From positions 1 through 40,106 of IMG/VR virus record IMGVR_UViG_3300010885_064491: 40,106 nt of DNA. The stretch is one strand, 5' to 3'. A program made the translations under genes and the position numbers. This DNA is from a virus. Below the pieces are notes generated by a model, which worked only from the letters and a program-made list of their open reading frames with translations, searched no databases and was not told the DNA's origin. This document shows, piece after piece, positions 5,771 to 40,106 of the stretch (position 1 is the first letter of the stretch; every line of letters starts with the position of its first letter).

Positions 5771-5771
5771 T

Positions 5772-6071
5772 ATGGCCAAATATTCAAGTACAAGTCCTTG
5801 GTACAAGACACCAGTTACTAATAATTATCTTAACTCGTTAACTATTCGCCCAGTTAGTGCTGAAACAGATGATTACTTGTATACCATTGAAGCACAGTAT
5901 GCTTACCGTCCAGATCTATTGGCATATGATCTGTATGGCACATCTAATCTTTGGTGGGTGTTTATACAGAGAAATTTGAATGTTCTTCAAGATCCTATAT
6001 TGGATTTTGTTCCAGGCAAAAAGATTTACATTTGTAAAAAAAGCAGCTTAATTAAAGCACTAGGACTATAA
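5772..6071 (+). CDS. 53: gp53-like baseplate wedge subunit, 99 aa
   Basis: A short protein whose middle is typical of the gp53 wedge family: YAYRPDLLAYDLYGTSNLWW (about residues 43-62), then VFIQRNLNVLQDPILDF and a short C-terminal piece that resembles a LysM-like tail (VPGKKIYI). In T4, gp53 joins wedges to each other and to the hub during baseplate assembly. I chose ATG at 5772, giving MAKYSSTSPW, because it follows the upstream stop by one base; an in-frame TTG at 5757 would lie inside the neighbour. T4 gp53 is longer (about 196 aa), so this is a compact version, as seen in aquatic T4-like phages. It ends two bases before the next gene. Confidence 0.85.
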   Translation: MAKYSSTSPWYKTPVTNNYLNSLTIRPVSAETDDYLYTIEAQYAYRPDLLAYDLYGTSNLWWVFIQRNLNVLQDPILDFVPGKKIYICKKSSLIKALGL

Positions 6072-14174: not shown

Positions 14175-17100
14175 TGTCAATGGCAAACCAGGACTGAGCG
14201 CAAATTTATTACCTAGTTTTTATCAAACTCCTGCAAATAAAAAGTTTCTACAAAGCACAATTGACCAGTTATTTCAACCAGGCAGTTTGACCAAACTAAA
14301 AGGTTATGTTGGTCGAGAAAATGCCAAGGCCAGTAATGGCAATGATATCTATACAGCTAGCGCTGATCAAAATAGACAAAATTATCAATTGGAGCCCGGG
14401 CTTGTAATCAAAGATTCTTTGAATAACATAACTTTCTTCAAAGATTATATGGACTATATCAATCAAATTGATGTGTTTGGTGGCAACACAGCCAACCATG
14501 CTAGATTAAACAAACAAGAATTTTATAGTTGGGATCCGCATATCAACTGGGATATGTTTGTAAATTTTCAAAATTATTATTGGTTGCCTTACGGTCCAGA
14601 AACAATCACAATATATGGTTATCAAGATATTGCCAATACAACATATAGTGTGGAAGTTCAAAGTGAAGGACCTAACAATCAATATATATTAACTCCCGAC
14701 GGTGCCACGCCCAACCCAACTATTAAATTGTATAAAGGAAAAACATACACTTTCAAAATTAATAGTCCTGGTAATCCTTTCAGTTTTAAAACAAGCAGAA
14801 GTATTGGCACTACCAACCGATATGCATATCTAAATGCTATTGATAATTACGGGGTGGAGTCTGGAACAATTATTTTTACAGTGCCCGACACTGCTCCTAA
14901 GATATTATATTTTCAAAGTGAAACCGACATAAATCTCGGAGGCACTATTGAGATACATTCAGTTGTTGACAACACACATATTGATGTGACTAAAGAAATC
15001 CTTGGAAAGACTTCTTTAATACTAAAGGACGGTACAGCTCTTAGTAATGGAATGAAAGTGGCATTTGGAGGTAAAGTTGTACCTGAGAGTTACTCGTCCG
15101 GACAATACTATGTTGAAGGGGTAGGAACAGCAATTGTTCTTGTTCCTGTATCAGTGCTAGAAATAATAAGTCCTTGGTCAACGGCTCAATCTATACCATT
15201 TGATACCACTGCATTTGATAAACAGCCTTGGGATAATGCAGTTGGTTATGCTGGCGAAACTGATTACATAACTATTAATAGAGCCAGTAGAGATCACAAC
15301 CCTTGGAGTAGATATAATCGCTGGTTTCATAAGGATGTTATATCAAAGAGTGCCAGCTATAACAACAGTTTCATAAGTCTTGATCAAACAAATCGCGCCG
15401 TGCGTCCTATTATTGAATTCAATGCAGACATACGATTATTCAATTTTGGAACAACGGCAATCATGGATATTGATGTGTTTGACGATGCTACTGGAAACAC
15501 CCTCTTGAATCCCAATGCACCGTCCGTATTCTCCGCTATTGAAGGCAAAGCAGGCTACAACCAACCAACGCTTGATGTCAACAAAGTACTGCCATTGACG
15601 GAAGGCATGTTGGTGTTGTTTGCGGGTGATCCTGATCCGTTGGTGCAAAATAAAATTTACCGGGTTGAATATGTTGATGTGAAGCATCTAAATCCAACTA
15701 GAGACTTGCCGGCCGGAAGTAGACAACTGCATTTAGTAGAAGTAGCCACGCCGATGATTGATCAAGTTGTTTTGGTGAAACAAGGAAAATATCAAAGTCA
15801 AATGTTCTGGTACAACGGAACAAAATGGCTGCAGGCACAACAAAAAATCAAGGTAAACCAACCTCCACTTTTTGACATATTTGATGATAATGGGATTAGT
15901 CTTAGCAATCTTGGCACATACAGCGGGTCCACATTCAAAGGAACCACACTGTTTTCTTACAAGCAAGGCGCAGGTACAGCTGATGCGCAACTGGGCTTTC
16001 CATTGAGCTACCAAAATGTTAACAATATAGGAGATATTGTTTTTAACTTTGATTTGGTAACAGATACATTTGAATATAAACAAAATCTAAAACTACAAAC
16101 AAAGAATATTGATACAGGATACCTGTCATTGTTGACCTATGCAGGGTCTACTGCATATCTAAATGGTTGGCAACTTTGCACAACACCTGATGTACAAGCG
16201 GCAATTAGAATATACAAAAATTCGGGACTTACCAATTCTTTCAAATTAGATATTTTTGATGATTCTTCAAAACTGCTTGATTTGTCAGTCAAAGTTTATA
16301 TCAACGGAATTAGATTGCCTAGTTCAAAATGGAACATAGTTGATTCAAAGCCTTATAAAATTATTAAATTGATCAGTGCTATTTCTCAGACGGATGTATT
16401 AACCATACGAGCATTTTCATCTCAACCTATCAACAGTAATGGGTATTATGAAATTCCTTTAAACTTACAAAATAATCCTCTGAATAACACCATGTCTAGC
16501 TTCACACTGGGAGAAGTAATAGATCATGTGAGCAGTATAGTGGATAATATTCCTGGCTTTATAGGCATGTTTCCAGGTAACAGCGAGTTACGAGATCTAG
16601 GAAATATCACTCAATATGGCACCAAATTTGTTCAACACAGCGGGCCGTTGAGTCTTGGAATTTATCATGTGGCCAGCGAGAGTAACAACATAATCAAGGC
16701 TGTGCAACAGTCAAGAGATGACTATAACAATTTTAAACGCCTGTTCATAAGCACAGCCAGCAAGCTGGGCGTAGACGGCGATCCAGTTACATTGGTCAAT
16801 TTAATTTTACAAAAAATTAATGCAAATAAACCAAACACTGCGCCTTACTATTTCAGTGATATGGTGCCATATGGAGCCTGTATTGTAACAAATCTCACAG
16901 TGGTTGACTCAAGGATTCGCCAATATCCGCTTAGTGCTGTATTCACGCTGGACACACTTAGTAACAAGGCAGTGGGTTTATATCTGAATGGAGTTCAATT
17001 GACCCACGGCAGAGACTATAATTTTGACAATCAAGGAAATGCAATTATTGTAACAAGTGTTAATCTCAATAATGGAGATACTATCAGCACTTATGAATAT

Positions 17101-20100
17101 GACAGTACAGACGGATCGTTTGTTCCTGCTACTCCTACCAAATTGGGCATGTGGCCAGCATATATTCCTCAGATTTATCTAGATACCACATTGATAAATC
17201 CACAAACGGTAATACAAGGTCACGATGGTAGTATCATGTTGGCCTATGGCGACTACAGAGATGCATTGCTTTTGGAATTAGAAAACAGAATTTTTAACAA
17301 TATCAAAGTAAAGTATGATACTGATATTTTTGATATATCGGATATCGTGCCCAGTTACAATCGTGCAAATGATTATAGTAGAGATGAATTCAATACTGTG
17401 CTGGCTCCTAATTTTTACAAATGGACCAATCTAATAGGTAAAGACCTAACTACGCCGTTGAGCTATGATAGAACTAATAGTTTTACTTTTAATTATTCTA
17501 AAAATACTGCTCCAGATGGCACATCTCGTTTACCGGCATACTGGAGAGGAATTTATCGGTACCTTTTAGATACCGATCGTCCTAACATATGTCCTTGGGA
17601 AATGCTAGGATTTAGTGTCATGCCAAGTTGGTGGACAGAAGTGTACGGGCCCGCACCTTATACCAGTAACAATTTGCCCCTGTGGCAAGATTTGTCAGCT
17701 GGTGCACTAAGGATACCTAACCAGCCAGTTACTTACAATAAAAAATATGCCAAACCTTTCTTGCTAGATCACATTCCTGTAGATGAAAGCGGCAACCTTG
17801 TAAGCCCTCAACTATCTAGAATAGCCGGAGGCACAATACATCCCAGCATAGATAACAATTTTGTGTTTGGAGATGGTAGTCCTGTTGAAAATGCATGGAC
17901 AAGAAGTAGTTATTATCCGTTCAGTGTGTTAATTACCAACATACTATTATCTCCTGCCAAGGTATTTGGCTTATTGCTTGATAGATCCAGAGTCAAACGA
18001 AATCTAGCAGGGCAATTGATTTATACTTCTACTGGTTTACGATTAAGACCTTCGGACATTGCATTGCCTAGTGTGTATGCAAGTACCAGTAGAATACAAA
18101 CAGCCGGACTTGTTAATTATATTGCTGATTTAATTTTTAATTATATCTTCAGCAACAATCTTATTAGCTATGATGCATACGCCACCGATTTGAAAAAAAT
18201 CAATACTCAATTGAGTTATAGAATTGGCGCGTTCACGAATAAAAGTCAATTTAACTTTTTGCTAGAATCCAAAACACCAACCAGTACCGGCAATGTTTTC
18301 ATTCCAGTTGACGATTATGATATATTTTTAAACAAGTCCAGCAGCGTAAAGAAATTAACATACAGCGGGGTAATTATAACCAAGCTATCAACTGGGTTTG
18401 AAATCAAAGGCTACAGTATCACACAACCTTATTTCAATTATTACCTTCCTACTACTAGCGTAGGAACCAGTGTGAATGTGGGAGGAATATCAGAAAATTA
18501 TTCAGTTTGGACGCCAGGCAATCATTATGTATTAGGCTTAGTGGTATTACACAATGCAATCTATTACCGGACAGTTGTAACTCATTCATCCACTGACACA
18601 TTCAACAACAGTTATTTTTCACAGCTGGCTGGGTTGCCAATGACTGGAGGAGTGTCAGCAAAATTTAAAACAGCATGGAACCGTTCAAACTTCAATGTGG
18701 CTCCGTATGGCACATTGTTTTTAAAAATACAAGATGTGGTGGATTTCCTCTTAGGGTATGGAGAATATCTAAAAGATCAGGGATTTTTATTTGACGACTT
18801 CAATAAAAATTTATCGTCAGTAGCCAACTGGGAAACAAGCACTAAAGAATTTTTATTCTGGACCACTCAGAACTGGAGTACTGGTCAAGATAAATGGAAT
18901 GATTGGTCGCCCAACCAATCTTATACTTATGGTTCCATAGTAAGATACGAAGCAGACTACTACAGTGCACTGTTCAATATTTCTACCGCAACCGTGTTTG
19001 ATTATGCCAAGTGGTCACTATTACCAGGTTTGAGCAATGTGGGCAGTAGTGTGATAAGTCTTAGTCCCAGTGCAAATGGAATTAATTTTGTAACCAATCT
19101 GGCTGTGGTTGACAGTATCTCAGGCGGATTCCATCCTTATGAAATTTTTAAAGTTGACGGTACTCCTTTTGAACTGGCGCATATAGACAGCTATAGACAA
19201 GAAAACACAGTAACTTACAGTCCAAGAACTACCGACGGGATATACGGTGCCAGTTTCTATCTAGTGCAAAATGAACATGTGGTGGTAATTAATAATACCA
19301 CAGTATTCAATGACATTATATACAGTCCTACAAGTGGATATAGACAGGAACGATTGAAAATATCTGGTTATGTTACTATCAATTGGTACGGTGGTTTAGA
19401 TATTCCAGGATTTATTTTTGATGCAGCCGCTGTACAATCATGGCAAGCATATCAAGATTATCATGTGGCAGACATTGTAAATCATCAAGGTTATTATTAT
19501 AGTGCAAACAAGTTTCTTGCGGGTGCTCCTGTATTTACAGCTACCGATTGGAACTTGTTACCAAAAAAACCTACTAGTCAAATTTTGCCTAACTGGACAA
19601 ATATAGCTACGCAATTTACTGATTTTTATGGGTTAGAAGTTGATAGCTTCAACAATAAACAACAAAGCATAGCTCATCATTTGATTGGCTATCAGAAGCG
19701 TCAGTACCTTGATAACATCATTCAAGATGATGTAAGCGAATTTAAATTCTATCAAGGCATGATTCGTGAAAAAGGCACTCAGAATGTTCTTAACAAATTA
19801 TTTGATGTGCTCAGTTCGGATGCTTTAGAAAGCCTTACTTTTTATGAGGAATGGGCATTACGGGTGGCTCAGTACGGCGCCTCAAACGCATTTGAAAATA
19901 TTGAATTCGTCTTGGATCAAGCCAAGTATTCTAGAAACAAATCGCAATCTACATTATTGATAAACAAAACTGATGCCACAGTGAGTCCTTTTGTTATTCA
20001 ACAAATTCCCAATGATATCTATCTAAAACCCTTGGGCTATAAGTCTGACCCGTTTCCTTTGCAGGATAATTTGATGCCTGTGTTAAGAAGTGCAGGCTAT

Positions 20101-23100
20101 GTTAGTTTATTAGATGTAAAAATAGCAATAAAAGATTTGAGTTTCTTGTTGAATCAACCCGCTACTTTGATTGAAACTGGTATTAGCTACAAAATCTTGA
20201 CCACTGATAGTACTGATTACACACAACTGGGCGCCACATCCAATACGCCTGGCCAAACATTTACCGCAAGTAGTCCTGGGTATGGTAACGGAACGGTGGC
20301 AATTGATGCGCAACAATTTGAAGAAGGTGATTACATCTGGTGTTCCTTTGATGATAAGGTGGCTTCAAACAGTTGGAATGTGTATAGATTTACAGATATC
20401 AAAATCCGAGCTACTGATGTTATCTATAACAACAACATATTGACTATAACATGTAAAAATTTAATAAAAAATATTTTTGTAGGAGACTATGTAGGTATAG
20501 TGTTGGATTACCCTAGCATAAAAGGGTTGACTAATTTTTACAAGGTAACAAGTATTAAACTAAATTCGTTTACAGTAAATGCTACCATAACAGGATTTAT
20601 AACTCCATTCCAGTACAGCGAAGAACTAATTGTGTTTGCATTGCTTACCAGTCGTGCCACGAGTATTGATGACATTGACAGGATTTTGTTAGCCAATCCA
20701 AAAACTCAAAACGTCATCTGGACAGATGACAGGGGCGACGGAAACTGGGCTAGCTGGGTTTACGATCCTGTCTATATGCAATCAACTGCCTCGGTGCGCG
20801 ATCCTAGCCTCAACTACCAATATGGAAAAACCATAGCACTAAATCGTATTGGTACAAGAGCAGCTGTGGGGTCCGCCACCGGGCAAGTGGTAATTTATAA
20901 TAAAATTGGCAAAACATCAGCTTGGCCATATAGACAAACTATTCCAGCTCCATACATTGCATCGGCTGATGTGAACAACTTGAACACTATTGCAACTGTA
21001 TTGGCATTTTCTTCCGATAGTAAATGGCTGGCAATTGGATCGCCTTATGCAGGTCATGCAGCCACTAGATATTTGGGGGAATTTAATGACGGGATCTCTT
21101 ACAACGAAGGAGACATTGTTTCTTATCTAGAAACATATTATCAAGCGTTATTGAATGTGTCACTGAATAAAATTCCCAACGCGGCAACACCATATTGGAA
21201 GATTATTTTCTATATTCCTGTTGATTCTTTAGCTGTCAATTCTGGATTGAATGCGCAGGGTGTGGTGTCGCTGTATGTACAAGATGCAAATAGCAATTAC
21301 AACCTGGTAGACACCATTATAAGCCCTTATCCTGCAGCCAATGAAAATTTTGGTTCATCTTTGGCATTTGATAGTACTAATTTGTATATTGGTGCCACGG
21401 GAGCAAACAATGCGGCTGGTCGTGTATATAAACTAAATTATATTGAAATTACACAAGCATCTACATTTTACGACGATGTTGGCAGCGCAGACACCACAGT
21501 GCATGTTACTAGCACAGCCGGAATCTTGTCTGGACAATCTATTCAAGGAACAGGATTTACATCCGGACAAACAGTCAAATATGTGCTGACTAGATTGTCG
21601 TTTGCAGCAGTGCCTGGAAATCCTAATTACATTAAAGATGTTGCAAATAATCTAGTAAATTTATCGTTTATAACACCAGGAACAATAGTTTCAGGCAATA
21701 ATATTCCTATTGATACTGTGGTAATAAAATCTGGAAGAGATATCTCAGGAAAAACATATGTACTTGTAGGCGCAGAAAAAGATCTCACTCAATCAATATC
21801 AACGATTCAATTTGCAAACACCGTGGTTACAGCTTCATTTGTGGTAGCTAACTTAACAAGTGATGCAACACTTGTTCTATCTGCCGGTCCTGAATCGCAA
21901 CCAAACGGACTATTGACATTTGTCGACACATCTTGGGCATATAACTTATTGAGTACACTGTCCGGTGAAGATGGTCATAATTATTTTGGTAGCACCCTAT
22001 CCTTGAGCAACGATGGCAAAACCTTGCTGGTATCTGCCACCGGAGGAGAAATAGGAGCTGTCTATATCTATAAAGATCTAGGACATGGTTTTTATCTAAA
22101 CAACAAACTCTTAGGTTCATATAATCAATTTGGAAAAAGTACTACGGTATCAGATAATGGTAAATTTATTGCTACCACTGATATTTTATCCTATGACGAA
22201 ACAGATATTGCACGACACGGAACAGTCAGTGTCTATTCTCTAACTACTGACAACGACTACATCAAGTTTCAAGACATAGTAGATCATTTTGCAGATACTG
22301 GCAGTAATTTTGGAGACACTATTTCTTTCATGAATGACAGCGATACCTTGGTCATTTACAGTGAAAATGCAGCAGGCCCGCAAACAACGTCTTTTGATAA
22401 AACTACAACAACATTTGATAAATCATCAACGAATTTTATAACATCTGTAATAGGCAGCGGCCGCATAGATGTATATGACAGATATAATACAAAATGGGTG
22501 TTCAGTGAAACAATATCCAACCCTGACGAAAATTTTGACGGATTTGGATCTGGTTTTGCAGTTGGAACTAACAGTATTTTTGCGGGCGCTCCCTTGGCCA
22601 CTGTTAAGGATCAATCAGATGCAGGAATAGTTTATATTTTTAACAAACCCTCTGATGTGTTTAGTTGGAAACAAACCAGAACACAATCGCCTGTAGCTGA
22701 TATTAGTAAACTTAAGAAATCATTTTTATACAACAAAAAAACAAATCAACTGATAACTTATCTTGATGTAATTGATCCCATTCAAGGTAAAATTGCAGGA
22801 CCTGCCAATGAAGAATTATCATATAAAACTTTTTATGATCCTGCAAGTTATTCTTATAGCGACGGCACATATGCTGTCAATACAAATAAACAAACATTTT
22901 GGTCAAAAAATCAACTGGGAAAATTATGGTGGGATCTGAGAACAGCAAAATTTTATACACCGTACTTCTCTAATGTGCTTTACAAATCTAACAACTGGAA
23001 TAAATTGGCTCCAGGTGCCAGTATTGATATTTACGAGTGGGTTACTTCTTCATTATTACCGGACGTTTGGGATACACAAGCTGATACAGCAGCTGGAACT

Positions 23101-26100
23101 GCGTTGGGCATAAGCGGTAAGAGTTTGTATGGCAACAAAGCATATTCTGTTAGACAAAGATACAACAGCGTAACAAAGAAATTTGTAAATGTTTACTATT
23201 TCTGGGTAAAAAACAAACGAATAACACCAAATGTTTCAAGCAGGAAAATAGCTGCTCTTAGTGTATCTAAGTTAATTGCAAGCCCATTGACTGAAGGCTA
23301 TACATACCTGTCCTTGCTGGGAACAAACAGTTTTAATCTCAACAATGCTTATGAATACATGGTTAATGCTGATGTTGTTCTATCCATTGAATACTGGACC
23401 ACAGATACTATACATAGAAATATTCACAGTCAGTGGAAATTGATAAGCACAGACACAATAGTAGATTTGCCACACACAATAGAACAAAAATGGATTGATA
23501 GTTTATGCGGTGCGGACGCGGCTGGCCGTGTGGTTCCAGATCCAAAATTACCACCTAAATTGAAATACGGCGTAGAAAATAGACCGCGTCAAGGCATGTT
23601 TATAAATCGTGTTGAAGCTTTGAAAGAATTTGTAGAAATTGCCAACGTGTCACTGTTACAGCATCAAATTGCCAAAAACTATAATATAAGTCAATTGGAG
23701 TCATACGACAAACCTCCAACCAAAATTTCTGGATTGTATGACAGTGTGTTGGATACAGATGCCGAGCTTGTGTATGCCAATGTAAATTTATTTCAAAGAC
23801 CCTTGGTGGCTCCAATAATAACTAATGGCAAAATTACTGCTATCAAAATTACAAATCCTGGCAAGGGATATTTAACGGCACCGTATATACAGATTGTAGG
23901 TTCAGGTGAAGGCGCCCATGTGAGAGCAGTTATTGACACATTAGGAAAAATCGTATCTGCAGAAATCATAAACGCTGGACAAGGATATAATGACGACACC
24001 GTTTGTATCATACGAGACTACTGTGTTCTGTTAAACAGTGATACACAAGCTAATGGCAGTTGGAGTATATACTCATACGATCCTACATATGTCAATTCTG
24101 TTTCAAAAGAAATTACCGGCATATGGTCAAGAATATTAACACAGACTTTTGATGTTAGGAATTATTGGAACTTTGTTGATTGGTACGGATCATATACCGA
24201 TGCTACTGGCAAGGTAAGTTTCACAGCAACACAATTCACGGCCGCTGATTTTAGTATACAAACTTATGCAGATCTAAATCTTATTAATGTTAGTGTAGGG
24301 CAAGTTGTCAAGGTACTTACAGTAAATTCGGGAGGGTGGGAGTTGCTGTACAAGTATGCAGATGTTATCAGTGTTGATTGGACTCAAAGTTACAGTGTGG
24401 TAGGCATACAGAACGGAACAATTCAACTGAGTACCAATCTTTATGAAACAAGTTCTACTGCTATTGGTTATGATGCTAGCATCTATGATAATAGCTCCTT
24501 TGACATCAAGGCCACTGGAGAATTGAGAAAAATACTTAATGCATTGAAGAATGATATTTTTATCAATGATTTGAAGCAAACTTATTTGAATTTATTTTTC
24601 AGTAGTGTTCGCTATGCCCACAGTGAACAATTGTATCTTGATTGGATTTTTAAAACCAGCTTTATTAGAGCCACTCACAATGTTGGTTCATTGGGTCAGC
24701 CAGTGTTTTATCCGGTGGATAATCTTAGCAATTTTAAAGATTATATAGCAGAAGTAAAACCCTATAAGACAAAAATTAGAGAATACATCAGCAACTATAC
24801 ATCTTTAGATACATCCAAATCTGCTGTAACAGATTTTGATTTGTCGCCAATAATTAGTAAAAATGTACTGGCCATCATAGATACACAAGTAGTGAACGGG
24901 AAAATAAGTGCAAACAATTCACTCATTAGATCATATCCTTGGAAATTCTGGATTGATAACGCAGGATACTCAATAACTGAAATAAAAATAATCAACGGCG
25001 GCAGTGGCTATGTAACCCAGCCGCAGGTGGTATTTACAAGCACGTCTGGCTCTGGTGCAACAGCTCAGGCATTTTTTACCAATGGAGTAATCAATCGACT
25101 GATACTGTTGACGCCAGGCAGTGGCTATCTATCTGCACCTTCGATACGCATTGTTGGTGGGCTAGCCGAAAATGGAACAGCAGCCAAAGCTGTAGCTATC
25201 ATAGGTGATACTAAGGCTAGAACAAATCTGATTGGTTTAAAATTTGACAGATTGACGTATACCAACTATATCGATTCTCTCGACGTTAATGAGAATTTTA
25301 CGGGAACTGGTTCTCGATTGCAGTTTCCGCTAGCATGGGCTCCGGATATTTTGATTGGAAAGTCATCGGTATACATAAACAACACAGTGGTGTTACGAGA
25401 ACTTTACACACTGCATATGATTTCTTCAGTAGTTGACGGATATACACATTACTCTGGTACAATCACATTTGCTACAGCGCCAGACAAGTCCGCTACCATT
25501 ACTGTGAAATACAAAAAAGATATATCTTTATTGAATTCAGCAGACAGAATTGCATTTTTCTACAATCCTGCCGCGGGAGAATTGGGTAAAAATCTCAATC
25601 AACTTATGACTGGTCTTGATTATGGGGGTACGGTGGTTGGCAATCTTGGATTCAACACCAACAGAGGTTGGAACGATGTGCCGTATTCTACCAATGCATG
25701 GGATGTATTTGATCCTGCGTTTAATGATTATATAGTAACGGTGGCATCTAACAGCTCATACAGTTTTAGATTACCTTATACTCCTGCCGTTGGCACTGAA
25801 CTTAATATATATTACCAGCCGTTGGCAGTGACATCTGTACCTGCAGATGGTGCCTCTTTGATATATCCTTTTAATCTCTACATTGGCTTGGTAACAGTTT
25901 CTGTAACCACTTTGGTACACTCGGTGAGTGCAGACAATCTTACTGCCACCGCACGAGGTTACGATAATGTGACTAACTATTCAATCTCAACCAAGTTGCA
26001 ATCTGTACTAACAGCTATAGCCGGTGCTGCAGGTCAGAGCATAATTTTATTCAGTCAAGTTGACAATTTGGTAGTAGGACAGTTTGTGTCTGGCCGTGGT

Positions 26101-29100
26101 GTGCAATTAAATAGCAAGATAATATCCATATCAGGAAATTTTGTTACTTTATCTACTAATCTTACCCAAGATGTTTTTGGAAATTACAATTTCTTCACAC
26201 TGGGTAAAACACTTGTATTGAATAGCACAGCTGGTATATTGGTAGGAATGAGTATTATTGGTGCAGGATTTACTAAACAATCAGTTGAGAAAGTGGTAAA
26301 TGCAACAGAATTAATTTTATCAGCTCCGCCATCTTTAATTCCAACAACCGGAGAATTGTTTCATTTCACTGACAACAGTGCAGGTTCTACAATATTGAAG
26401 GTTTCATCAGTTGCCAACTTGAGAGTTGGGGATGTGGTAACTTGTAATCAAACTGGACTATTTGGATATAATACCAAAATTGTTTCCATAGATTCTGCAA
26501 ATTCAACAGTGACTCTTGCTCAAATTATATTTGAAAATATCAGTAACAACATACAGTTGACATTTACAAGAATATTGAGTCAAGCAGTTGATTATATTTC
26601 TTATGCCAACGGCACTGTATTATTGTCCAACCCAGTTCCAACCGGCAGTACAGTCAACACATACGGCAAACTAGACCCTATAAGAATTGATGCTGCTGAT
26701 TTTGATACTGTGGCCAATTCTTCTGCTAGCAATCCATATGCTGTGATGGCTCCCATTATAATAGGCACTACCCAGCCGCCAAATCTAGTTACGATTCCTC
26801 TAGTCAATAACTCAAACAATTATATTATCAATATACCGCAGGTATTTACAGCAAGCGCCGGCGATACATTCATAATTCGTCAAAGCACAAGTGATGGATC
26901 AGTAACTCCGTTTGATTATGATTCAGATATCACCGGCGGCGATTTGGCTTATGCTACTGCCAGGGGAATTGCTGCTGATGATATAGCCATTGATGGAGAT
27001 GGGTTTGTCACAACTTCTACAAGCCCAGCACCTGAAGAAGTTGTACCGGGGCAAGTGGTAGACACCGTGGCGATCAAAGTGTTTGATAGACCAACAGCAG
27101 GAAATGCAGAAATACATGTGGACAATTACACAACAGATGGTGTTACATCCTCATTCAAATTTAAACAAATTCCCAGCAGTGCTAGATCCATAATTGTAAA
27201 ATTAGGCAACACTGTAAAAACTTTTAGTGATGATTATGCCATTGATTACGCCAATCAAACCATTACTTTCAATACACCGCCTGTAACTAATCAAATTGCA
27301 ACTATTTTTACAGTTGGTTATTCCGGTGAGAATATACTGGACATTGAATATTTTGTAGGCAACGGATCCACTAAGGAATTTATCACCAGTGCTCGTTGGT
27401 TAGTGAATGTAACTGCTTTGGTTCATGTTAACGGAGTGACTAGTGAATTCACATTGTTTAAAACAGACAATACATATACTCTAAGTAATGTAGTTGGGAT
27501 AAGATTTTCTAATGCTCCTGCTAGTGGAGATTTGATAAACTATATAATTGTTAGTGGTAATGATTCATCTTTCTCTGTAACCAATACAGAGCGTATTGCA
27601 ACTGATGGCAACTATACATACGCTCTTAACAATATGGTTGGCAAATCACTACCAAATGAATCTAGTATGATCGTGAGAGTAGACCAAACAATTTTACCAG
27701 CTCCTATCTCTATGTATTTTAAAGTTAGTGCCAATAGATTAAACTATGCAATTGATACAGATAGGGTGGCATCAAGATCAGTTAATGAGGCGCAAATTTT
27801 AGTATTGGTTGAGAATGATATTTTACTCAACGGGCGAGATTACACTGTAGACTTGACTGGCATTGTTGTTAAAATTACTCGTCAAACATATAAAAAATAT
27901 TCTGGCAAAGATCTGATTATCAGTGTAACAGCAAACAACGGCTATGTTTATGATGCAATAAATGGAAAAATAACTTTTGCATATGCCTATGATAATTCTC
28001 GTGTAGTTGAAGTTATATCCTCTTACCAACACGATTATCTTAATATTCAAAGAACAGCATTCACTGCCCAGTCTTTAGTCAATATAACTCCTGATCTTAC
28101 AGTGTCTTACCAATATCAAAATACCATAGGTGGTTTTATCAGTCTGGACAGGACTGTACTTAATGAAAATTATGTATGGGTGCTGAAAAATTCAGTGTTG
28201 TTGACACCAGGCGTGGACTTTGTATTGGCTGATAACAGAACAAGTATACAACTGACCAGCGATCTAGTTGCCAGTGATACTGTGGACTTGATTACATTTG
28301 GCAGTAACATTCTTAAATCTGGTATTGCATATATGCAATTTAAAGACATGCTGAATAGAAAAGTATATATTAGATTGGGAAAAAACAAACAAACCACGCT
28401 GGCACAAGATTTGCACTGGAATTCTACAGAAATTGTGTTGACTGATGCTACAAATTTTACCGGAAGCAGCGCAAAACAAGATCGACCAGGCGTTATTGAA
28501 ATACGAGGAGAACGAATTGAATATTTCAGCAAAATTGGAAATATCTTGAGATTGTTACAAAGAGGGACCCACGGCACCGGTATTAATAATTTCAACAAGG
28601 CAGGAACCTTTGTGCAAGATATTGGACCGAGTGAAATAATTCCCTACAAGGATTCTGCCAGTACTACAACTGTGATTTCTAATGGTAGTGACACAGTGCC
28701 CTTGGCATTTGCTCCAGCAAGTGCAAACGAAATTGAGGTATTCGTTGGAGGATATGACACAACTGCGGTTTGGTCTCCAAATACCATATATGAAAAGGAT
28801 GTGATAGTAAATGTTGGATCTTACACCTACAAAGCAAAAATTCGTCATACCAGCGCCAATGCGTTTAGCACAGATACTGATAAGTGGATATTTTTTGTAG
28901 GCAATATTAGACTTAAAAAAGAAACCTACAGTATTTTTAACGTGAACAAAGCTCCTTACGGTCCTGCAGGTGACATCACAATGAATCCTGCACAAGATGG
29001 TACTGGCAAGCCAGATTTTACTGTGGACGGCTACAGCAATCAACTGAAGTTATCCAATGTATTATCGATAGGAACTCGTATCACGGTTGTGAAAAATAGC

Positions 29101-29202
29101 GGTATTGAATGGGATAGTCAAATGAATATTTTAGATGATACTGGACCTATAGCTCAGTTTATCAAAGCACAACCGGGAATTTGGTATTCTGAATACAAAT
29201 AA
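14164..29202 (+). CDS. Giant mosaic virion structural protein, 5012 aa
   Basis: One uninterrupted frame of about 15 kb. The N-terminus (LLPSFYQTPANKKFLQSTID, about residues 17-36; then ENAKASNGNDIY, and FYSWDPHINWDMFVNF at about 120-135) and conserved internal blocks (FYQGMIREKGTQNVLNKLF near 1865, RPRQGMFINRVEALKEF near 3142, LYLDWIFKTSFIRA near 3485) match very large structural proteins of aquatic T4-like phages, from recollection. Added modules are five carbohydrate-binding-like units (near 1449, 1581, 1760, 2307, 4870), an FG-GAP-type propeller region (about 2218-2840), two GxGY beta blocks (3223-3285, 3603-3681), three tandem VGxxVxGxG repeats (about 3958-4138), fibre-like beta units and a RGTHGTG block (near 4800). 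No signal peptide or membrane helix is seen. It follows gp6 where T4 has genes 7-10, so a baseplate-periphery or side-fibre role is likely, but inferred. Part of the wedge function of gp7 or gp8 may be hidden in it. Confidence 0.85.
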   Translation: MANNVNGKPGLSANLLPSFYQTPANKKFLQSTIDQLFQPGSLTKLKGYVGRENAKASNGNDIYTASADQNRQNYQLEPGLVIKDSLNNITFFKDYMDYINQIDVFGGNTANHARLNKQEFYSWDPHINWDMFVNFQNYYWLPYGPETITIYGYQDIANTTYSVEVQSEGPNNQYILTPDGATPNPTIKLYKGKTYTFKINSPGNPFSFKTSRSIGTTNRYAYLNAIDNYGVESGTIIFTVPDTAPKILYFQSETDINLGGTIEIHSVVDNTHIDVTKEILGKTSLILKDGTALSNGMKVAFGGKVVPESYSSGQYYVEGVGTAIVLVPVSVLEIISPWSTAQSIPFDTTAFDKQPWDNAVGYAGETDYITINRASRDHNPWSRYNRWFHKDVISKSASYNNSFISLDQTNRAVRPIIEFNADIRLFNFGTTAIMDIDVFDDATGNTLLNPNAPSVFSAIEGKAGYNQPTLDVNKVLPLTEGMLVLFAGDPDPLVQNKIYRVEYVDVKHLNPTRDLPAGSRQLHLVEVATPMIDQVVLVKQGKYQSQMFWYNGTKWLQAQQKIKVNQPPLFDIFDDNGISLSNLGTYSGSTFKGTTLFSYKQGAGTADAQLGFPLSYQNVNNIGDIVFNFDLVTDTFEYKQNLKLQTKNIDTGYLSLLTYAGSTAYLNGWQLCTTPDVQAAIRIYKNSGLTNSFKLDIFDDSSKLLDLSVKVYINGIRLPSSKWNIVDSKPYKIIKLISAISQTDVLTIRAFSSQPINSNGYYEIPLNLQNNPLNNTMSSFTLGEVIDHVSSIVDNIPGFIGMFPGNSELRDLGNITQYGTKFVQHSGPLSLGIYHVASESNNIIKAVQQSRDDYNNFKRLFISTASKLGVDGDPVTLVNLILQKINANKPNTAPYYFSDMVPYGACIVTNLTVVDSRIRQYPLSAVFTLDTLSNKAVGLYLNGVQLTHGRDYNFDNQGNAIIVTSVNLNNGDTISTYEYDSTDGSFVPATPTKLGMWPAYIPQIYLDTTLINPQTVIQGHDGSIMLAYGDYRDALLLELENRIFNNIKVKYDTDIFDISDIVPSYNRANDYSRDEFNTVLAPNFYKWTNLIGKDLTTPLSYDRTNSFTFNYSKNTAPDGTSRLPAYWRGIYRYLLDTDRPNICPWEMLGFSVMPSWWTEVYGPAPYTSNNLPLWQDLSAGALRIPNQPVTYNKKYAKPFLLDHIPVDESGNLVSPQLSRIAGGTIHPSIDNNFVFGDGSPVENAWTRSSYYPFSVLITNILLSPAKVFGLLLDRSRVKRNLAGQLIYTSTGLRLRPSDIALPSVYASTSRIQTAGLVNYIADLIFNYIFSNNLISYDAYATDLKKINTQLSYRIGAFTNKSQFNFLLESKTPTSTGNVFIPVDDYDIFLNKSSSVKKLTYSGVIITKLSTGFEIKGYSITQPYFNYYLPTTSVGTSVNVGGISENYSVWTPGNHYVLGLVVLHNAIYYRTVVTHSSTDTFNNSYFSQLAGLPMTGGVSAKFKTAWNRSNFNVAPYGTLFLKIQDVVDFLLGYGEYLKDQGFLFDDFNKNLSSVANWETSTKEFLFWTTQNWSTGQDKWNDWSPNQSYTYGSIVRYEADYYSALFNISTATVFDYAKWSLLPGLSNVGSSVISLSPSANGINFVTNLAVVDSISGGFHPYEIFKVDGTPFELAHIDSYRQENTVTYSPRTTDGIYGASFYLVQNEHVVVINNTTVFNDIIYSPTSGYRQERLKISGYVTINWYGGLDIPGFIFDAAAVQSWQAYQDYHVADIVNHQGYYYSANKFLAGAPVFTATDWNLLPKKPTSQILPNWTNIATQFTDFYGLEVDSFNNKQQSIAHHLIGYQKRQYLDNIIQDDVSEFKFYQGMIREKGTQNVLNKLFDVLSSDALESLTFYEEWALRVAQYGASNAFENIEFVLDQAKYSRNKSQSTLLINKTDATVSPFVIQQIPNDIYLKPLGYKSDPFPLQDNLMPVLRSAGYVSLLDVKIAIKDLSFLLNQPATLIETGISYKILTTDSTDYTQLGATSNTPGQTFTASSPGYGNGTVAIDAQQFEEGDYIWCSFDDKVASNSWNVYRFTDIKIRATDVIYNNNILTITCKNLIKNIFVGDYVGIVLDYPSIKGLTNFYKVTSIKLNSFTVNATITGFITPFQYSEELIVFALLTSRATSIDDIDRILLANPKTQNVIWTDDRGDGNWASWVYDPVYMQSTASVRDPSLNYQYGKTIALNRIGTRAAVGSATGQVVIYNKIGKTSAWPYRQTIPAPYIASADVNNLNTIATVLAFSSDSKWLAIGSPYAGHAATRYLGEFNDGISYNEGDIVSYLETYYQALLNVSLNKIPNAATPYWKIIFYIPVDSLAVNSGLNAQGVVSLYVQDANSNYNLVDTIISPYPAANENFGSSLAFDSTNLYIGATGANNAAGRVYKLNYIEITQASTFYDDVGSADTTVHVTSTAGILSGQSIQGTGFTSGQTVKYVLTRLSFAAVPGNPNYIKDVANNLVNLSFITPGTIVSGNNIPIDTVVIKSGRDISGKTYVLVGAEKDLTQSISTIQFANTVVTASFVVANLTSDATLVLSAGPESQPNGLLTFVDTSWAYNLLSTLSGEDGHNYFGSTLSLSNDGKTLLVSATGGEIGAVYIYKDLGHGFYLNNKLLGSYNQFGKSTTVSDNGKFIATTDILSYDETDIARHGTVSVYSLTTDNDYIKFQDIVDHFADTGSNFGDTISFMNDSDTLVIYSENAAGPQTTSFDKTTTTFDKSSTNFITSVIGSGRIDVYDRYNTKWVFSETISNPDENFDGFGSGFAVGTNSIFAGAPLATVKDQSDAGIVYIFNKPSDVFSWKQTRTQSPVADISKLKKSFLYNKKTNQLITYLDVIDPIQGKIAGPANEELSYKTFYDPASYSYSDGTYAVNTNKQTFWSKNQLGKLWWDLRTAKFYTPYFSNVLYKSNNWNKLAPGASIDIYEWVTSSLLPDVWDTQADTAAGTALGISGKSLYGNKAYSVRQRYNSVTKKFVNVYYFWVKNKRITPNVSSRKIAALSVSKLIASPLTEGYTYLSLLGTNSFNLNNAYEYMVNADVVLSIEYWTTDTIHRNIHSQWKLISTDTIVDLPHTIEQKWIDSLCGADAAGRVVPDPKLPPKLKYGVENRPRQGMFINRVEALKEFVEIANVSLLQHQIAKNYNISQLESYDKPPTKISGLYDSVLDTDAELVYANVNLFQRPLVAPIITNGKITAIKITNPGKGYLTAPYIQIVGSGEGAHVRAVIDTLGKIVSAEIINAGQGYNDDTVCIIRDYCVLLNSDTQANGSWSIYSYDPTYVNSVSKEITGIWSRILTQTFDVRNYWNFVDWYGSYTDATGKVSFTATQFTAADFSIQTYADLNLINVSVGQVVKVLTVNSGGWELLYKYADVISVDWTQSYSVVGIQNGTIQLSTNLYETSSTAIGYDASIYDNSSFDIKATGELRKILNALKNDIFINDLKQTYLNLFFSSVRYAHSEQLYLDWIFKTSFIRATHNVGSLGQPVFYPVDNLSNFKDYIAEVKPYKTKIREYISNYTSLDTSKSAVTDFDLSPIISKNVLAIIDTQVVNGKISANNSLIRSYPWKFWIDNAGYSITEIKIINGGSGYVTQPQVVFTSTSGSGATAQAFFTNGVINRLILLTPGSGYLSAPSIRIVGGLAENGTAAKAVAIIGDTKARTNLIGLKFDRLTYTNYIDSLDVNENFTGTGSRLQFPLAWAPDILIGKSSVYINNTVVLRELYTLHMISSVVDGYTHYSGTITFATAPDKSATITVKYKKDISLLNSADRIAFFYNPAAGELGKNLNQLMTGLDYGGTVVGNLGFNTNRGWNDVPYSTNAWDVFDPAFNDYIVTVASNSSYSFRLPYTPAVGTELNIYYQPLAVTSVPADGASLIYPFNLYIGLVTVSVTTLVHSVSADNLTATARGYDNVTNYSISTKLQSVLTAIAGAAGQSIILFSQVDNLVVGQFVSGRGVQLNSKIISISGNFVTLSTNLTQDVFGNYNFFTLGKTLVLNSTAGILVGMSIIGAGFTKQSVEKVVNATELILSAPPSLIPTTGELFHFTDNSAGSTILKVSSVANLRVGDVVTCNQTGLFGYNTKIVSIDSANSTVTLAQIIFENISNNIQLTFTRILSQAVDYISYANGTVLLSNPVPTGSTVNTYGKLDPIRIDAADFDTVANSSASNPYAVMAPIIIGTTQPPNLVTIPLVNNSNNYIINIPQVFTASAGDTFIIRQSTSDGSVTPFDYDSDITGGDLAYATARGIAADDIAIDGDGFVTTSTSPAPEEVVPGQVVDTVAIKVFDRPTAGNAEIHVDNYTTDGVTSSFKFKQIPSSARSIIVKLGNTVKTFSDDYAIDYANQTITFNTPPVTNQIATIFTVGYSGENILDIEYFVGNGSTKEFITSARWLVNVTALVHVNGVTSEFTLFKTDNTYTLSNVVGIRFSNAPASGDLINYIIVSGNDSSFSVTNTERIATDGNYTYALNNMVGKSLPNESSMIVRVDQTILPAPISMYFKVSANRLNYAIDTDRVASRSVNEAQILVLVENDILLNGRDYTVDLTGIVVKITRQTYKKYSGKDLIISVTANNGYVYDAINGKITFAYAYDNSRVVEVISSYQHDYLNIQRTAFTAQSLVNITPDLTVSYQYQNTIGGFISLDRTVLNENYVWVLKNSVLLTPGVDFVLADNRTSIQLTSDLVASDTVDLITFGSNILKSGIAYMQFKDMLNRKVYIRLGKNKQTTLAQDLHWNSTEIVLTDATNFTGSSAKQDRPGVIEIRGERIEYFSKIGNILRLLQRGTHGTGINNFNKAGTFVQDIGPSEIIPYKDSASTTTVISNGSDTVPLAFAPASANEIEVFVGGYDTTAVWSPNTIYEKDVIVNVGSYTYKAKIRHTSANAFSTDTDKWIFFVGNIRLKKETYSIFNVNKAPYGPAGDITMNPAQDGTGKPDFTVDGYSNQLKLSNVLSIGTRITVVKNSGIEWDSQMNILDDTGPIAQFIKAQPGIWYSEYK
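18502..19569 (+). repeat. Three carbohydrate-binding-like (CBM5/12-type) modules within the giant gene
   Basis: Residues about 1447-1495, 1579-1625 and 1759-1802 share the pattern W-x5-Y-x2-(G/A)-x-(I/V)V-x5-YY, ending in a hydrophobic W/F-x-L-P/A turn. Examples are WSPNQSYTYGSIVRYEADYY and WQAYQDYHVADIVNHQGYYY. This is how chitin/cellulose-binding modules of families 5 and 12 look. Two further copies lie at about 21067-21210 and 28765-28910. Assignment is by motif only. Confidence 0.55.
20815..22683 (+). repeat. FG-GAP-like beta-propeller repeats within the giant gene
   Basis: About seven blade-like units repeat the pattern FG-x-(S/T)-x6-(D/N)-x5-(I/V)(G/S/A)-x7-G-x-V-x-(V/I)Y. Examples are ENFGSSLAFDSTNLYIGATG, NYFGSTLSLSNDGKTLLVSA and DGFGSGFAVGTNSIFAGAP. 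They start near 20815, 20986, 21343, 21976, 22123, 22303 and 22537. A carbohydrate-binding-like module and a VGxxVxGxG-type unit are inserted between blades, which explains the larger gaps. Such repeats form integrin-type propellers used in adhesion. Confidence 0.6.
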
Positions 29203-35631: not shown

Positions 35632-38600
35632 ATGACTGTTTCTACAGCTTTATTCACAGGATATATTAATAATGGTACCAACGGATCTACGGGTACCCGG
35701 CTCACGGTAACCAATGTATCATCTGGCACAATCTATTTGGGCATGATGCTCGGTGATACAACTGGCGCAGTCTTGGCCACCACAAAAATTTTGGTTCAGT
35801 TGACTGGTGTGACTAATGGAGTTGGCACATACACTGTGAGTCTTGGACAAACAGCGGGTACCAGCAGTGCCCAATTAACAATAACTGGTACCACAGCCGG
35901 CAAAATATTAAAAAGTGATTACAACATTTTGCAATCAAAAATAGCATTGATCATGGGCAACGGATCTGGTGCTTACGGCTACGGGCAAAGCAGCCCACAA
36001 TTTAAAAGCAGTCAATTGAGCGGCACGGGCATAACCATTAGACCGGCGGAGTGGTCCAATTTGCGAAACGACATTGTGAATGCCTACTATCATCAAGGAT
36101 CCCAGGGCAGTTTGCCTGTGCCTGCTGTGCCCGCACAGGGATCTGCTATACTGGCTACGGACTACGGGAATTATTCCAATTTGATACAGTCAGTTTATAC
36201 CAATGCCACAGTGACTCCGCCATCTGGCCAAGCAAGCCGTATCAGCTTTCCTGCAGGAACACGCACCAGTGCATGGAATGGCACAGTGTACCATACCGTG
36301 ACGTTGACCTTTGATACTGCAAATGCCGCTAGGTATTATTTTAATTCAGGCAGTAATTTTCAATTTTCTGCCAGTTTGATTAATTATCCAGGCTCTCCGG
36401 GTTACGGAGTTGCCAGCACCAGTTATGCCAAGGACACAGACTGGAACCTGTTGTTGACCAACATGGGTACCATTACTTTTGATGTTAGGGGAACCAGTAC
36501 AACTGGTTCTTATACCACAATTGGTGCCAGCACGGGTTTTTATCAGCTGACTACCAGCTCTCAGAATATATTTCAAAAGAAAACTACCAGTCCAACATAT
36601 ACCAACAATCAGTATGATATTTTGGCCAGTGTAGATGCTACTGGAAGGATCATTACTTTTAGCATACAGTTTCAAGATCTAGATACTGGCTCACCCATAG
36701 ATGTAAATGTTGAAGGCACATTGACCAGCACAGTTCAGGCCTATTATGCAGACGGCAACAATGTCAAGGTAAGTTTGCCCAGCTACACTGCAACAATGAC
36801 GGGCGGTGCTATAGTGGTTCCAACACCAGCTCCTACGCCAGCGCCAACGCCAGCTCCTACACCAGCACCACCTGGCCCTACACCAGCACCAACACCTGCT
36901 CCTACACCAGCACCAACCCCTGCGCCAAACCCAAGTATCAGCTCAATCACAGCCAGTCCAAATCCAGCCACTAACGGCCAAACAATAACTTTCAGTATCA
37001 CCGTGATTAATATGCGTGCTGAGCTGGGGGCACCTCCAGGCAATGGCTTTGGCATATTATACATAGGAGTTTATGATAACACTGGCTCTGCCGTTGGCCT
37101 TAGTGGATATTATTATCCTCCCGCGCAGAACGGAACTGTGGTAATTACCCACGCAATAACATTCCTGTCGATTCTGGCTCCTTACACAAGTAGCGCTGTG
37201 CTGACTAATTACCCGGGAACACAAATCTCAGGACCAACTATCACTCTAGCACCTGCTCCAACGCCAGCACCTGGCCCTTATTATGGTACCATTGCGTTTG
37301 TTCCGGCTGGTCCTGTGGTGTCTGGTACCAGTGTATCATTCACTGCCACAGCGTACAACGCCGTTGGTCAAGGTTGGGCTATAAACGTGGTAGACGGTAA
37401 TGGTGTTTATCAAGCAAGTACCTCTGGCATTGTTTCAAGCAATCCGCAAACTTTCACAACCAGTTTCGTGACTAATTTTGCTAGCGGAACACCTACTAAT
37501 GGTTACTTTGATATTGGTGGTTTACCAGTTGAGGTCAGAAGCTTGTCAGTGACTCCAGTGACTCCAGTGCCCTATTTCAGCAGTTATGGTTGGAGTCCAG
37601 CTGGACCCATCGTGGCAGGCACATCAGCAGAATTTCATGCCACTGTAGTAAATGGTGTGGGCTTGCAGTACTCAATTGGTATAACTGGGGAAGCGCCATT
37701 CACTGGCACAATTGCAACCAATCCGCAGTATCTCAATGTATTCAAGTCATTGCAGAGCAGTACTGCGGCCTCTGCCACAGTGAGCGGGGGGCTGGGCACA
37801 GTCACTGATACTATTGTGGTAAATGCAGCGCCAACGCCAGCACCAACACCACCATATACACCACCACCAACACCAGCACCTACGCCAGCACCAACACCTA
37901 CGCCAGCTCTATGCCAACCGTACGGCACATTCATAGTTTATTTCTGCAGCGGTGGAAACAGATATGCCAACTACTATGACGGAACTGTGTCAGCAAATGG
38001 AACTTGTGGATATTATTATGCATTGGTAACTGCCAATGACAGTGTAAATTGCGGGTATGTGCCGCCAACACCAACACCTTATTTTAGTAGTCACGGTTGG
38101 AATATTGGTCCTACAGTGACTGTAGGAACAGTTGGCGCTTATTCAGTTACTGTTGTAAATGCTGTGGGTTCGAGCTATACAATAACAATTGTTGGATACC
38201 CTTCTAGTTCAGGGATAATTTCAAGTAGTCCGCAAACACTAACGGCAGTTGCTCAATTAAATACGGCAACAGCAATACAAGATGGTTATGCAATTGTTAC
38301 CGGAGCTGGATCTGTAAGTGATAGTATTATTGTGCTTGCATCAACACCAGCACCAACACCTGGACCAACACCAGCACCAACACCAGCACCAACACCAGCT
38401 CCTACTGCTTATAATTGCTCTTTGGTAACAGGTCAGTTGGCTATAACTTATTGCGCCAATGGTTTTGGCGCGGGACCTATTAGATATAATGCAACATACA
38501 CTGGCGCGAATGCAAGTGGTGCTGGCGCTAATACTGGAAATCCTTATTATGACTGTGTGGTTACTGTTACTGTTGTTGCTGAAAACGATCCCACATGCCC

Positions 38601-40106
38601 TGGATATGTGGCACCCACACCTGCGCCGACACCAGCTCCAACGCCAGCACAAATCAACTGCTATTCATACACACTTCAAGATGCGTTCTCAATATGTGAC
38701 GGTGTTACTGGCAATAGAAACTACTATAATTATACTGGCGGTCAAACTGGGGCTCACACCACAACCCTTGCGGGTGATTGTGCAACACAGTTGTATAGAA
38801 CTGCATTGAATGTTCCAGGTTGTCCTGGATATGTGCCGCCAGGACCAACACCAGCACCAACACCTGGACCAACACCAGCACCAACACCAGCACCAACACC
38901 AGCACCCACAACAGGAACAATAGCTTGTAGTGCAGTAGCCGGATTATACGGAATACCTGCTGATTATACTGTGGGAACCGCAAGTTACACCGCAAATTAT
39001 GATAGCTTTGGAAATCCAACATATACATATAATGGTGGTTGTTCTCAAGCTCCAACGCCAGCTCCAACGCCAGCTCCAACGCCAGCACCCACACCCGCAC
39101 CAACGCCAACACCACGCGGCACATTGATTTCCTCAGTTTGTCTTGGAGTCAACTTGTTCTCAGTTATTGCAGACGGTTCAGGCGGTACTTATACAACAGT
39201 AGAGTTTAATCAAGTTTGTTACGATACACTGTACCCACCCACACCTGCTCCAACGCCAGCACCAGTAAGTTGCCCAGCCGGTGGCACTCCAGCAGGACCT
39301 GCCTATTGCGATGGTACTACTCTCTATCAGCAAGTTTATACTGGTTATGCAGATGCACAAGGCAACTGTGTTACTGGAGCCAGTGTGATTAGACAAAATG
39401 ATTCAAGTTGCGCTCCATATGTGCCGCCAACACCTGGACCAACGCCAGCTCCAACGCCAGCACCAACGCCAGCACCCACACCAGCGGCTTATTCTTGCTC
39501 TTCACTAGAAGGTGTTAGTGCATACAACGTGTGTGTTGGTTATGATTTGTACTACTATTCCTATACCGGGGCATCTATTGATTTTACTGGCAATCCAGGT
39601 CAAGACTGCGCAGTAACACTGGATAATATTCAGCATAATGCTGCTCAATGTTTTGTAGGTCCTCCAGCTCCAACGCCGGCACCAACACCAGCACCTACGC
39701 CAGCACCAAACCCAACGCCGGCACCAACACCAGCACCTACGCCAGCACCAAACCCAACGCCGGCACCAACGCCCACACCACCGGACTGGCCTCCATACGG
39801 TACATATACTGGATTATATTGTTATGGCGTTGATCAATATGCTCAGTATTCCAATGGAGTTGACGGATATTACTATGCAATAAACGAATATAACAGTCCA
39901 TCTTGCGGCGGAGGAGCACCAGCACCAACACCAGCACCACAACCAACACCTGCGCCAACACCTGCGCCAACACCTGCCCCAACACCAGCACCGCCCAGTT
40001 GCTCTGTAGGAGCCTTGTGTGCTCAATATCAATATGGCTGTTACCTTGTCACATACTTGTATGACGCCGACTGCAACTGTCAATATGCATATTACGAAGA
40101 TGCTTG
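35632..40106 (+). CDS. Modular Pro-rich and Cys-rich adhesin-like virion protein (partial, no stop in window)
   Basis: The frame is open from ATG at 35632 to the right edge (1,491 complete codons). Residues 1-75 form a beta unit like one in the second fibre (LTVTNVSSGTIYLGM). Residues about 115-390 resemble a recurrent phage structural domain: RPAEWSNLRNDIV, then AARYYFNSGSNFQFSASL and DWNLLLTNMGTITFDVRGTS. From residue 397, Pro-Thr-Pro-Ala arrays alternate with compact modules. First come four Ig-like modules without cysteine (about 435-541, 549-645, 647-733 and 818-903), the last two closely alike (both start PYFSS). From residue 761, nine modules carry cysteines, while none occurs earlier. 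Four have the spacing C-x11-C-x(19-33)-C-x13-C. The design is that of a long extended adhesin. The start follows CAAGGTAAAAT. I do not recognise the cysteine module. Confidence 0.85.
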   Translation, partial: MTVSTALFTGYINNGTNGSTGTRLTVTNVSSGTIYLGMMLGDTTGAVLATTKILVQLTGVTNGVGTYTVSLGQTAGTSSAQLTITGTTAGKILKSDYNILQSKIALIMGNGSGAYGYGQSSPQFKSSQLSGTGITIRPAEWSNLRNDIVNAYYHQGSQGSLPVPAVPAQGSAILATDYGNYSNLIQSVYTNATVTPPSGQASRISFPAGTRTSAWNGTVYHTVTLTFDTANAARYYFNSGSNFQFSASLINYPGSPGYGVASTSYAKDTDWNLLLTNMGTITFDVRGTSTTGSYTTIGASTGFYQLTTSSQNIFQKKTTSPTYTNNQYDILASVDATGRIITFSIQFQDLDTGSPIDVNVEGTLTSTVQAYYADGNNVKVSLPSYTATMTGGAIVVPTPAPTPAPTPAPTPAPPGPTPAPTPAPTPAPTPAPNPSISSITASPNPATNGQTITFSITVINMRAELGAPPGNGFGILYIGVYDNTGSAVGLSGYYYPPAQNGTVVITHAITFLSILAPYTSSAVLTNYPGTQISGPTITLAPAPTPAPGPYYGTIAFVPAGPVVSGTSVSFTATAYNAVGQGWAINVVDGNGVYQASTSGIVSSNPQTFTTSFVTNFASGTPTNGYFDIGGLPVEVRSLSVTPVTPVPYFSSYGWSPAGPIVAGTSAEFHATVVNGVGLQYSIGITGEAPFTGTIATNPQYLNVFKSLQSSTAASATVSGGLGTVTDTIVVNAAPTPAPTPPYTPPPTPAPTPAPTPTPALCQPYGTFIVYFCSGGNRYANYYDGTVSANGTCGYYYALVTANDSVNCGYVPPTPTPYFSSHGWNIGPTVTVGTVGAYSVTVVNAVGSSYTITIVGYPSSSGIISSSPQTLTAVAQLNTATAIQDGYAIVTGAGSVSDSIIVLASTPAPTPGPTPAPTPAPTPAPTAYNCSLVTGQLAITYCANGFGAGPIRYNATYTGANASGAGANTGNPYYDCVVTVTVVAENDPTCPGYVAPTPAPTPAPTPAQINCYSYTLQDAFSICDGVTGNRNYYNYTGGQTGAHTTTLAGDCATQLYRTALNVPGCPGYVPPGPTPAPTPGPTPAPTPAPTPAPTTGTIACSAVAGLYGIPADYTVGTASYTANYDSFGNPTYTYNGGCSQAPTPAPTPAPTPAPTPAPTPTPRGTLISSVCLGVNLFSVIADGSGGTYTTVEFNQVCYDTLYPPTPAPTPAPVSCPAGGTPAGPAYCDGTTLYQQVYTGYADAQGNCVTGASVIRQNDSSCAPYVPPTPGPTPAPTPAPTPAPTPAAYSCSSLEGVSAYNVCVGYDLYYYSYTGASIDFTGNPGQDCAVTLDNIQHNAAQCFVGPPAPTPAPTPAPTPAPNPTPAPTPAPTPAPNPTPAPTPTPPDWPPYGTYTGLYCYGVDQYAQYSNGVDGYYYAINEYNSPSCGGGAPAPTPAPQPTPAPTPAPTPAPTPAPPSCSVGALCAQYQYGCYLVTYLYDADCNCQYAYYEDA
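36820..39996 (+). repeat. Twelve Pro-Thr-Pro-Ala coding arrays separating modules
   Basis: In-frame arrays of (PTPA)n occur at 36820-36933, 37249-37278, 37831-37908, 38062-38079, 38344-38406, 38614-38649, 38836-38907, 39049-39114, 39235-39264, 39424-39486, 39661-39783 and 39916-39996. Third codon positions vary (CCA, CCT, CCG; ACA, ACG; GCA, GCT, GCG), so the protein repeat is under selection and not merely a copied DNA repeat. They should form stiff, extended spacers. Confidence 0.85.
39679..39762 (+). repeat. Exact 42-bp tandem duplication in a Pro-rich array
   Basis: The 14-codon unit at 39679-39720 is repeated without a change at 39721-39762. It encodes APTPAPTPAPNPTP. Perfect identity at third positions contrasts with the variation in the other arrays and indicates a recent slippage or unequal-exchange event. 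Confidence 0.9.

Follow-up and report, generated by a model that had tools for sequence, protein, structure and literature searches.

The window analysed here is the whole of virus record IMGVR_UViG_3300010885_064491, 40,106 bases in length, and it ends inside an open reading frame (ORF) on the plus strand (35632–40104) for a tail-fibre-like virion protein. Of this ORF 1491 codons are seen; it is open at the window end, and both the ORF and its last cysteine-bearing stretch are therefore incomplete. It lies downstream of a baseplate and tail-fibre gene block that holds a baseplate hub/lysozyme-like gene, gp25-like and gp6-like wedge genes and several tail-fibre/collar ORFs. The gp6-like protein is closest to those of Agrobacterium phage Atu_ph07, Sinorhizobium phage Phosso, Salicola phage SCTP-2 and Serratia phage BF (33–36% identity), a relationship that places the source phage, which is uncultured and of a freshwater type, among the T4-like myoviruses, in a group with jumbo members. 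The tail gene block also contains a single ORF of 5017 codons (14149–29202, plus strand), and phage PA5oct has a giant virion protein, detected by mass spectrometry, in the equivalent position. Near the other end of the window, a Polynucleobacter-1 RNA (Rfam RF01718) was found at 216–350 on the minus strand (114 bits); of 16 related viral records searched, 11 carry it, one of these 345 kb long, and 14 control genomes all lack it. It looks like a conserved phage RNA, and it hints weakly at freshwater Burkholderiales such as Polynucleobacter as hosts. An ARAGORN call of a tRNA-Ser at 5944–6029 (plus strand) falls entirely within the baseplate wedge ORF 5757–6071 and is probably spurious; ARAGORN called no tRNA in four sister loci, which had been fetched around other genes.

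The N-terminal part of the ORF provides the link to the particle. Residues 89–395 (35896–36816) form a cysteine-free domain that is also present on 89 ORFs of sister loci, where it is followed by other C-termini. A profile of this region, built from 90 sister-locus sequences, matched PA5oct gp360 (E 8.5e-38) within a syntenic block, the gene order being the same in both phages: after the giant ORF come a 606-base ORF and two fibre/structural ORFs. The record of gp360 is annotated ESI-MS/MS, which we read, from the record alone, as virion proteomics. This homology supports the assignment to the virion that had been made in an earlier, sequence-only reading of the window. The domain is followed by the first of the PTPAP-type proline-rich linkers (36820–36933) and by middle beta-type domains, again without cysteine (36934–37836), which include an internal repeat: the part at 37534–37830 recurs at 38041–38343 (plus strand, E 2.8e-9), where the second copy sits between the first and second of the cysteine modules described below.

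No cysteine occurs in residues 1–760, as had been noted, and the remaining 731 residues contain 31 (4.2%). Cysteine makes up 5.8% of the eight complete modules, against 0.2–1% in the window's remaining tail and virion ORFs. Module 1 (37909–38070) has the spacing C-x10-C-x19-C-x14-C and ends in CGYVPP. Modules 2 (38407–38616), 3 (38650–38841), 6 (39262–39432) and 7 (39487–39666) share C-x11-C and C-x13-C around variable middles of 33, 27, 19 and 24 residues, respectively; every codon position that the sequence-only reading had named for these five modules was exact, as were the middle lengths and the C-x-x-Y-V-[PA]-P endings of three of them (CPGYVAP, CPGYVPP and CAPYVPP). The three two-cysteine modules, 4 (38917–39051), 5 (39112–39243) and 8 (39781–39921), were located as claimed, except that the first cysteine codon of the last one is at 39820 rather than 39817. 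A cysteine-rich stretch cut by the window end (39991–40104) has five cysteines spaced x5/x6/x10/x1 (codons at 40000, 40018, 40039, 40072 and 40078) and gave no family match. The shared spacing is far from chance: in 20,000 shuffles of the residues inside the five four-cysteine modules, four or even three modules with an identical first and last gap were never obtained.

A whole-ORF tblastn and a pattern search from the window's own modules returned nothing, because the modules have diverged too far and low-complexity filtering masks the linkers. A first DNA pattern, G-Y-V-[PA]-P-x-P-x-P, yielded a few true relatives together with many loci (such as L002, L004 and L007) that were discarded as unrelated proline-rich or chance matches, while a second, N-S-x-x-C-G-Y-V-P-P, yielded 66 viral stretches with a 44-residue unit in nearly all of them. 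With an iterated profile from which the window was excluded, 146 copies were assembled on 70 other viral contigs or loci, with the consensus P-x-x-G-T-L-L-x-x-Y-C-x-G-x-x-L-Y-x-x-Y-A-D-G-x-[GC]-G-T-Y-x-x-x-I-E-x-N-S-x-x-C-G-Y-V-P-P. This window-free profile matched Modules 1, 8, 5 and 6 (E 5.5e-10, 1.8e-8, 6.2e-7 and 1.3e-4) and, weakly, Module 7 (E 0.06); the best of 100 shuffled decoys reached 4.9 bits. Modules 2 and 3 fell below significance singly, and the membership of Module 4 is not significant. When the four x11/x13 modules (2, 3, 6 and 7) were themselves made into a profile, it matched that of the family with a probability of 94.5% (E 7.6e-8), with the extra length falling in the middle. 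The C2-x-G, the C4 after N-S/N-D-x-x and the G-Y-V-P-P-like end are clear in Modules 1, 6 and 8; Modules 2 and 3 carry the end signature as CPGYV[PA]P, and Module 7 deviates at its end.

The judgement that no family could be recognised thus holds for the curated libraries and fails beyond them, where this large unnamed family exists. The window ORF matched no family in Pfam or PHROGs, its relatives matched none consistently in Pfam, PHROGs or NCBIfam, and none of these libraries has a model for the modules. A sequence search of the PDB found no relative and nothing significant; phmmer matches there, for example to internalin K and UBE2O, were set aside as apparent low-complexity hits on the proline linkers. 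A tblastn search of 50,697 named phage genomes gave nothing convincing, though remote copies may escape tblastn, and literature searches with motif strings and for cysteine-rich phage fibre repeats found no description of the domain. Sequence comparison thus assigns the modules to an unnamed family of phage domains that follows a simple cysteine-pair rule; the family is widespread in uncultured phages and was not found in the cultured ones among those named genomes.

Structure prediction for single modules indicated a three-stranded beta meander. AlphaFold2 placed strands at 11–17, 20–30 and 36–44 in Module 1 (63 sequences, mean pLDDT 87), and at 12–19, 25–35 and 51–60 in Module 2 from the four window sequences (best model, pLDDT 78; the other four, lower-ranked runs had means of 54–63). 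In both models C1 precedes strand 1 and C2 is close to that strand's end; C3 stands where strand 3 begins, and C4 follows that strand. On these models, C-x11-C and C-x13-C would correspond to strand 1 and to strand 3 plus the N-S turn, and the variable middle to the strand 2–3 loop. No structure in the PDB or BFVD reached E ≤ 0.001 with Foldseek, and VIA-align scores did not exceed Z 2.4, although a missing match does not prove a new fold.

The models also bear on how the cysteines may pair. In a meander, strands 1 and 3 begin at the same end of the sheet and finish at the opposite one, which makes C1–C3 and C2–C4 disulfides plausible, and the family points the same way. Without being demanded by the search pattern, C2 occurs in 144 of the 146 copies; C4 occurs in all 146, which is partly an effect of gathering copies with a pattern that contained N-S-x-x-C-G-Y-V. 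As would be expected of such bonds, C1 and C3 are gained and lost jointly: among 121 unique copies both are present in 33, C1 only in four, C3 only in two and neither in 82 (p = 7e-23), and with one copy from each of 59 clusters the counts are 13, three, two and 41 (p = 1.3e-8). In two or more of the copies counted as 'C1 only', inspection by eye suggests that the cysteine is C4 of the module before. The two-cysteine form is the commonest in the family; Modules 5 and 8 retain only C2 and C4, and Module 4, by eye, apparently C1 and C3. Disulfide-bonded mini-domains, as the sequence-only reading had proposed, are thus supported by a matching profile from unrelated phages and by two co-varying cysteine pairs, the bonds themselves being deduced. 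A match to a zinc- or metal-binding fold had been named as evidence against this proposal, and no such family was found above cut-off.

Disulfides in a phage particle had also been called unusual, which stands, but with a precedent: the sheath and baseplate of Agrobacterium phage Milano contain an extensive network of disulfides, showing that myovirus particles can hold many such bonds (PMC10811340). The Milano bonds, as described there, lock sheath and baseplate subunits of the mature particle, whereas here bonds are suggested by a sequence pattern and would lie inside small, repeated domains of a fibre-like protein.

In a close relative (L149) the N-terminal domain and the middle domains are present, the latter in a form free of cysteine modules, and the array of modules is missing; no credible module was found in any of 102 sister loci fetched via neighbouring genes, and in sister phages other beta-rich repeats occupy its place. 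On this comparative evidence, the array is an accessory cassette. The virion domain is joined to modules in four further loci (L072, L047, L052 and L064), in a different order, and modules also occur in other kinds of protein: nine of them follow a virion-structural/tail-fibre domain (phrog_2163, E 6e-43) in a phiKZ-like virion protein (L041), and seven stand in tandem in L053. An ordinary bacterial origin was set aside, because the N-S-x-x-C-G-Y-V-P-P pattern led to confirmed relatives in only 5 of 14 stretches in cellular genomes, compared with 48 of 66 in viral contigs. As a separate observation, several cysteine-module or cysteine-rich proteins (L041, 6506–9934 on the minus strand; L008, L012 and L077) seem, from a reading of their sequences, to end in a Hint/intein-like domain.

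Among known systems, tail fibres with Ig-like or Calx-beta-like accessory repeats show the same plan of a conserved N-terminal virion domain, variable C-terminal repeats and exchange between relatives, whereas the repeats here are cysteine-clamped units of 45–70 residues from no curated family. One branch of the family (L065, L076, L079, L094 and others) has S-Y-D-x-G-x-T-W at the strand 2–3 turn, like the Asp-box (BNR) repeat PF02012, where the main branch has D-G-x-G-G-T-Y. PF02012 itself matched one relative only, at E 0.0037 and 17.5 bits against a cut-off of 27, and did not hit the window ORF; moreover, the motif here marks a single hairpin turn in a cysteine-clamped unit rather than a propeller, and the window modules are without it. 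The defensin-like laterosporulin fold is a small, disulfide-rich, three-stranded sheet, resembling what is predicted for the module, but it is defined by three disulfides, whereas the module has two cysteine pairs. Laterosporulin3 aligned with the module model over 33 residues at 1.8 Å (Z 2.2, 6% identity), tied with unrelated folds, and we treat this likeness as a lead, not as evidence. Six-cysteine relatives in archaeal and WOR-3 metagenome bins (L144 and L146) share a C-x-G-x-x-K-Y ... L-I-E-x-N-S-x-D-C-G-Y core, clear in L144 and weaker in L146, and differ in having further cysteines and cellular bins as their source.

The ORF is probably best understood as a fibre-like virion protein bearing a swappable array of disulfide-stapled mini-domains that is oxidised after lysis and binds a ligand on the host surface. 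From the virion domain near the N-terminus the protein would continue through the beta-type domains into some ten mini-domains of 45–70 residues, joined by stiff PTPAP linkers. Each mini-domain, a predicted three-stranded meander with too few residues to build a proper hydrophobic core, would be held by a near-invariant C2–C4 staple, tying the end of strand 1 to the segment behind strand 3, with an optional C1–C3 staple from ahead of strand 1 to the beginning of strand 3, leaving the strand 2–3 loop free to vary. The bonds would form in the oxidising outside after lysis, giving a stable, extended array that most likely binds its ligand by avidity and is exchanged as a cassette between phages. 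The family, the cysteine pairing pattern, the predicted fold, the virion homology and the accessory distribution are the supported parts of this reading, to which it adds an oxidation state, its timing, a position on the particle and binding that we infer. In phage fibres the virion domain is usually conserved and the C-terminal repeats behind it are exchangeable; by analogy with that plan a role in host attachment is most likely. It is quite unlikely, in our estimate, that the modules make up a redox-gated, phage-specific adhesin, loose or unfolded in the reducing cytoplasm and folding by oxidation only after lysis; if that were true, the fibre would be competent to bind only outside the cell.

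Several other roles for the array were weighed against post-lysis stapling and attachment. The stapled beads and proline-rich linkers could instead bind nothing and serve as a stalk or surface brush that is long, stiff and resistant to proteases. The bead-on-string layout, the many similar tandem copies in L041 and L053, and the concentration of conservation in turns and cysteines, with no evident binding motif, are all compatible with such a spacer; yet the modules of one protein diverge strongly, their loops of 19–33 residues vary more than a uniform stalk needs, and relative to sister phages the array replaces other C-terminal domains, so that we hold this somewhat unlikely. That the cysteines link one copy of the fibre protein to the next, and do not fold each module, has its parallel in the inter-subunit disulfides of the Milano sheath and baseplate (PMC10811340), but C1 and C3 of a module appear or vanish as a pair and cysteine numbers per module are even, both of which fit intramolecular bonds, and the same domain turns up in proteins built quite differently; we consider this very unlikely. 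Still less probable is metal binding of the zinc type, which the four cysteines in each of five window modules might suggest. The modules have no C-x2-C knuckles and only two histidines in the 449 residues of all eight, no zinc family matched above its curated cut-off, and a four-ligand site does not explain why most family members retain two cysteines; zinc binding was rejected on this two-cysteine majority and the near-absence of histidine.

The curated libraries and the searched genomes of cultured phages are without this family. What the window brings into view is a small, recognisable domain family that is common to phage proteins of very different architecture, in T4-like, phiKZ-like and other phages, and its consensus and cysteine rule could be used to annotate metagenomes and to flag fibre or adhesin genes.
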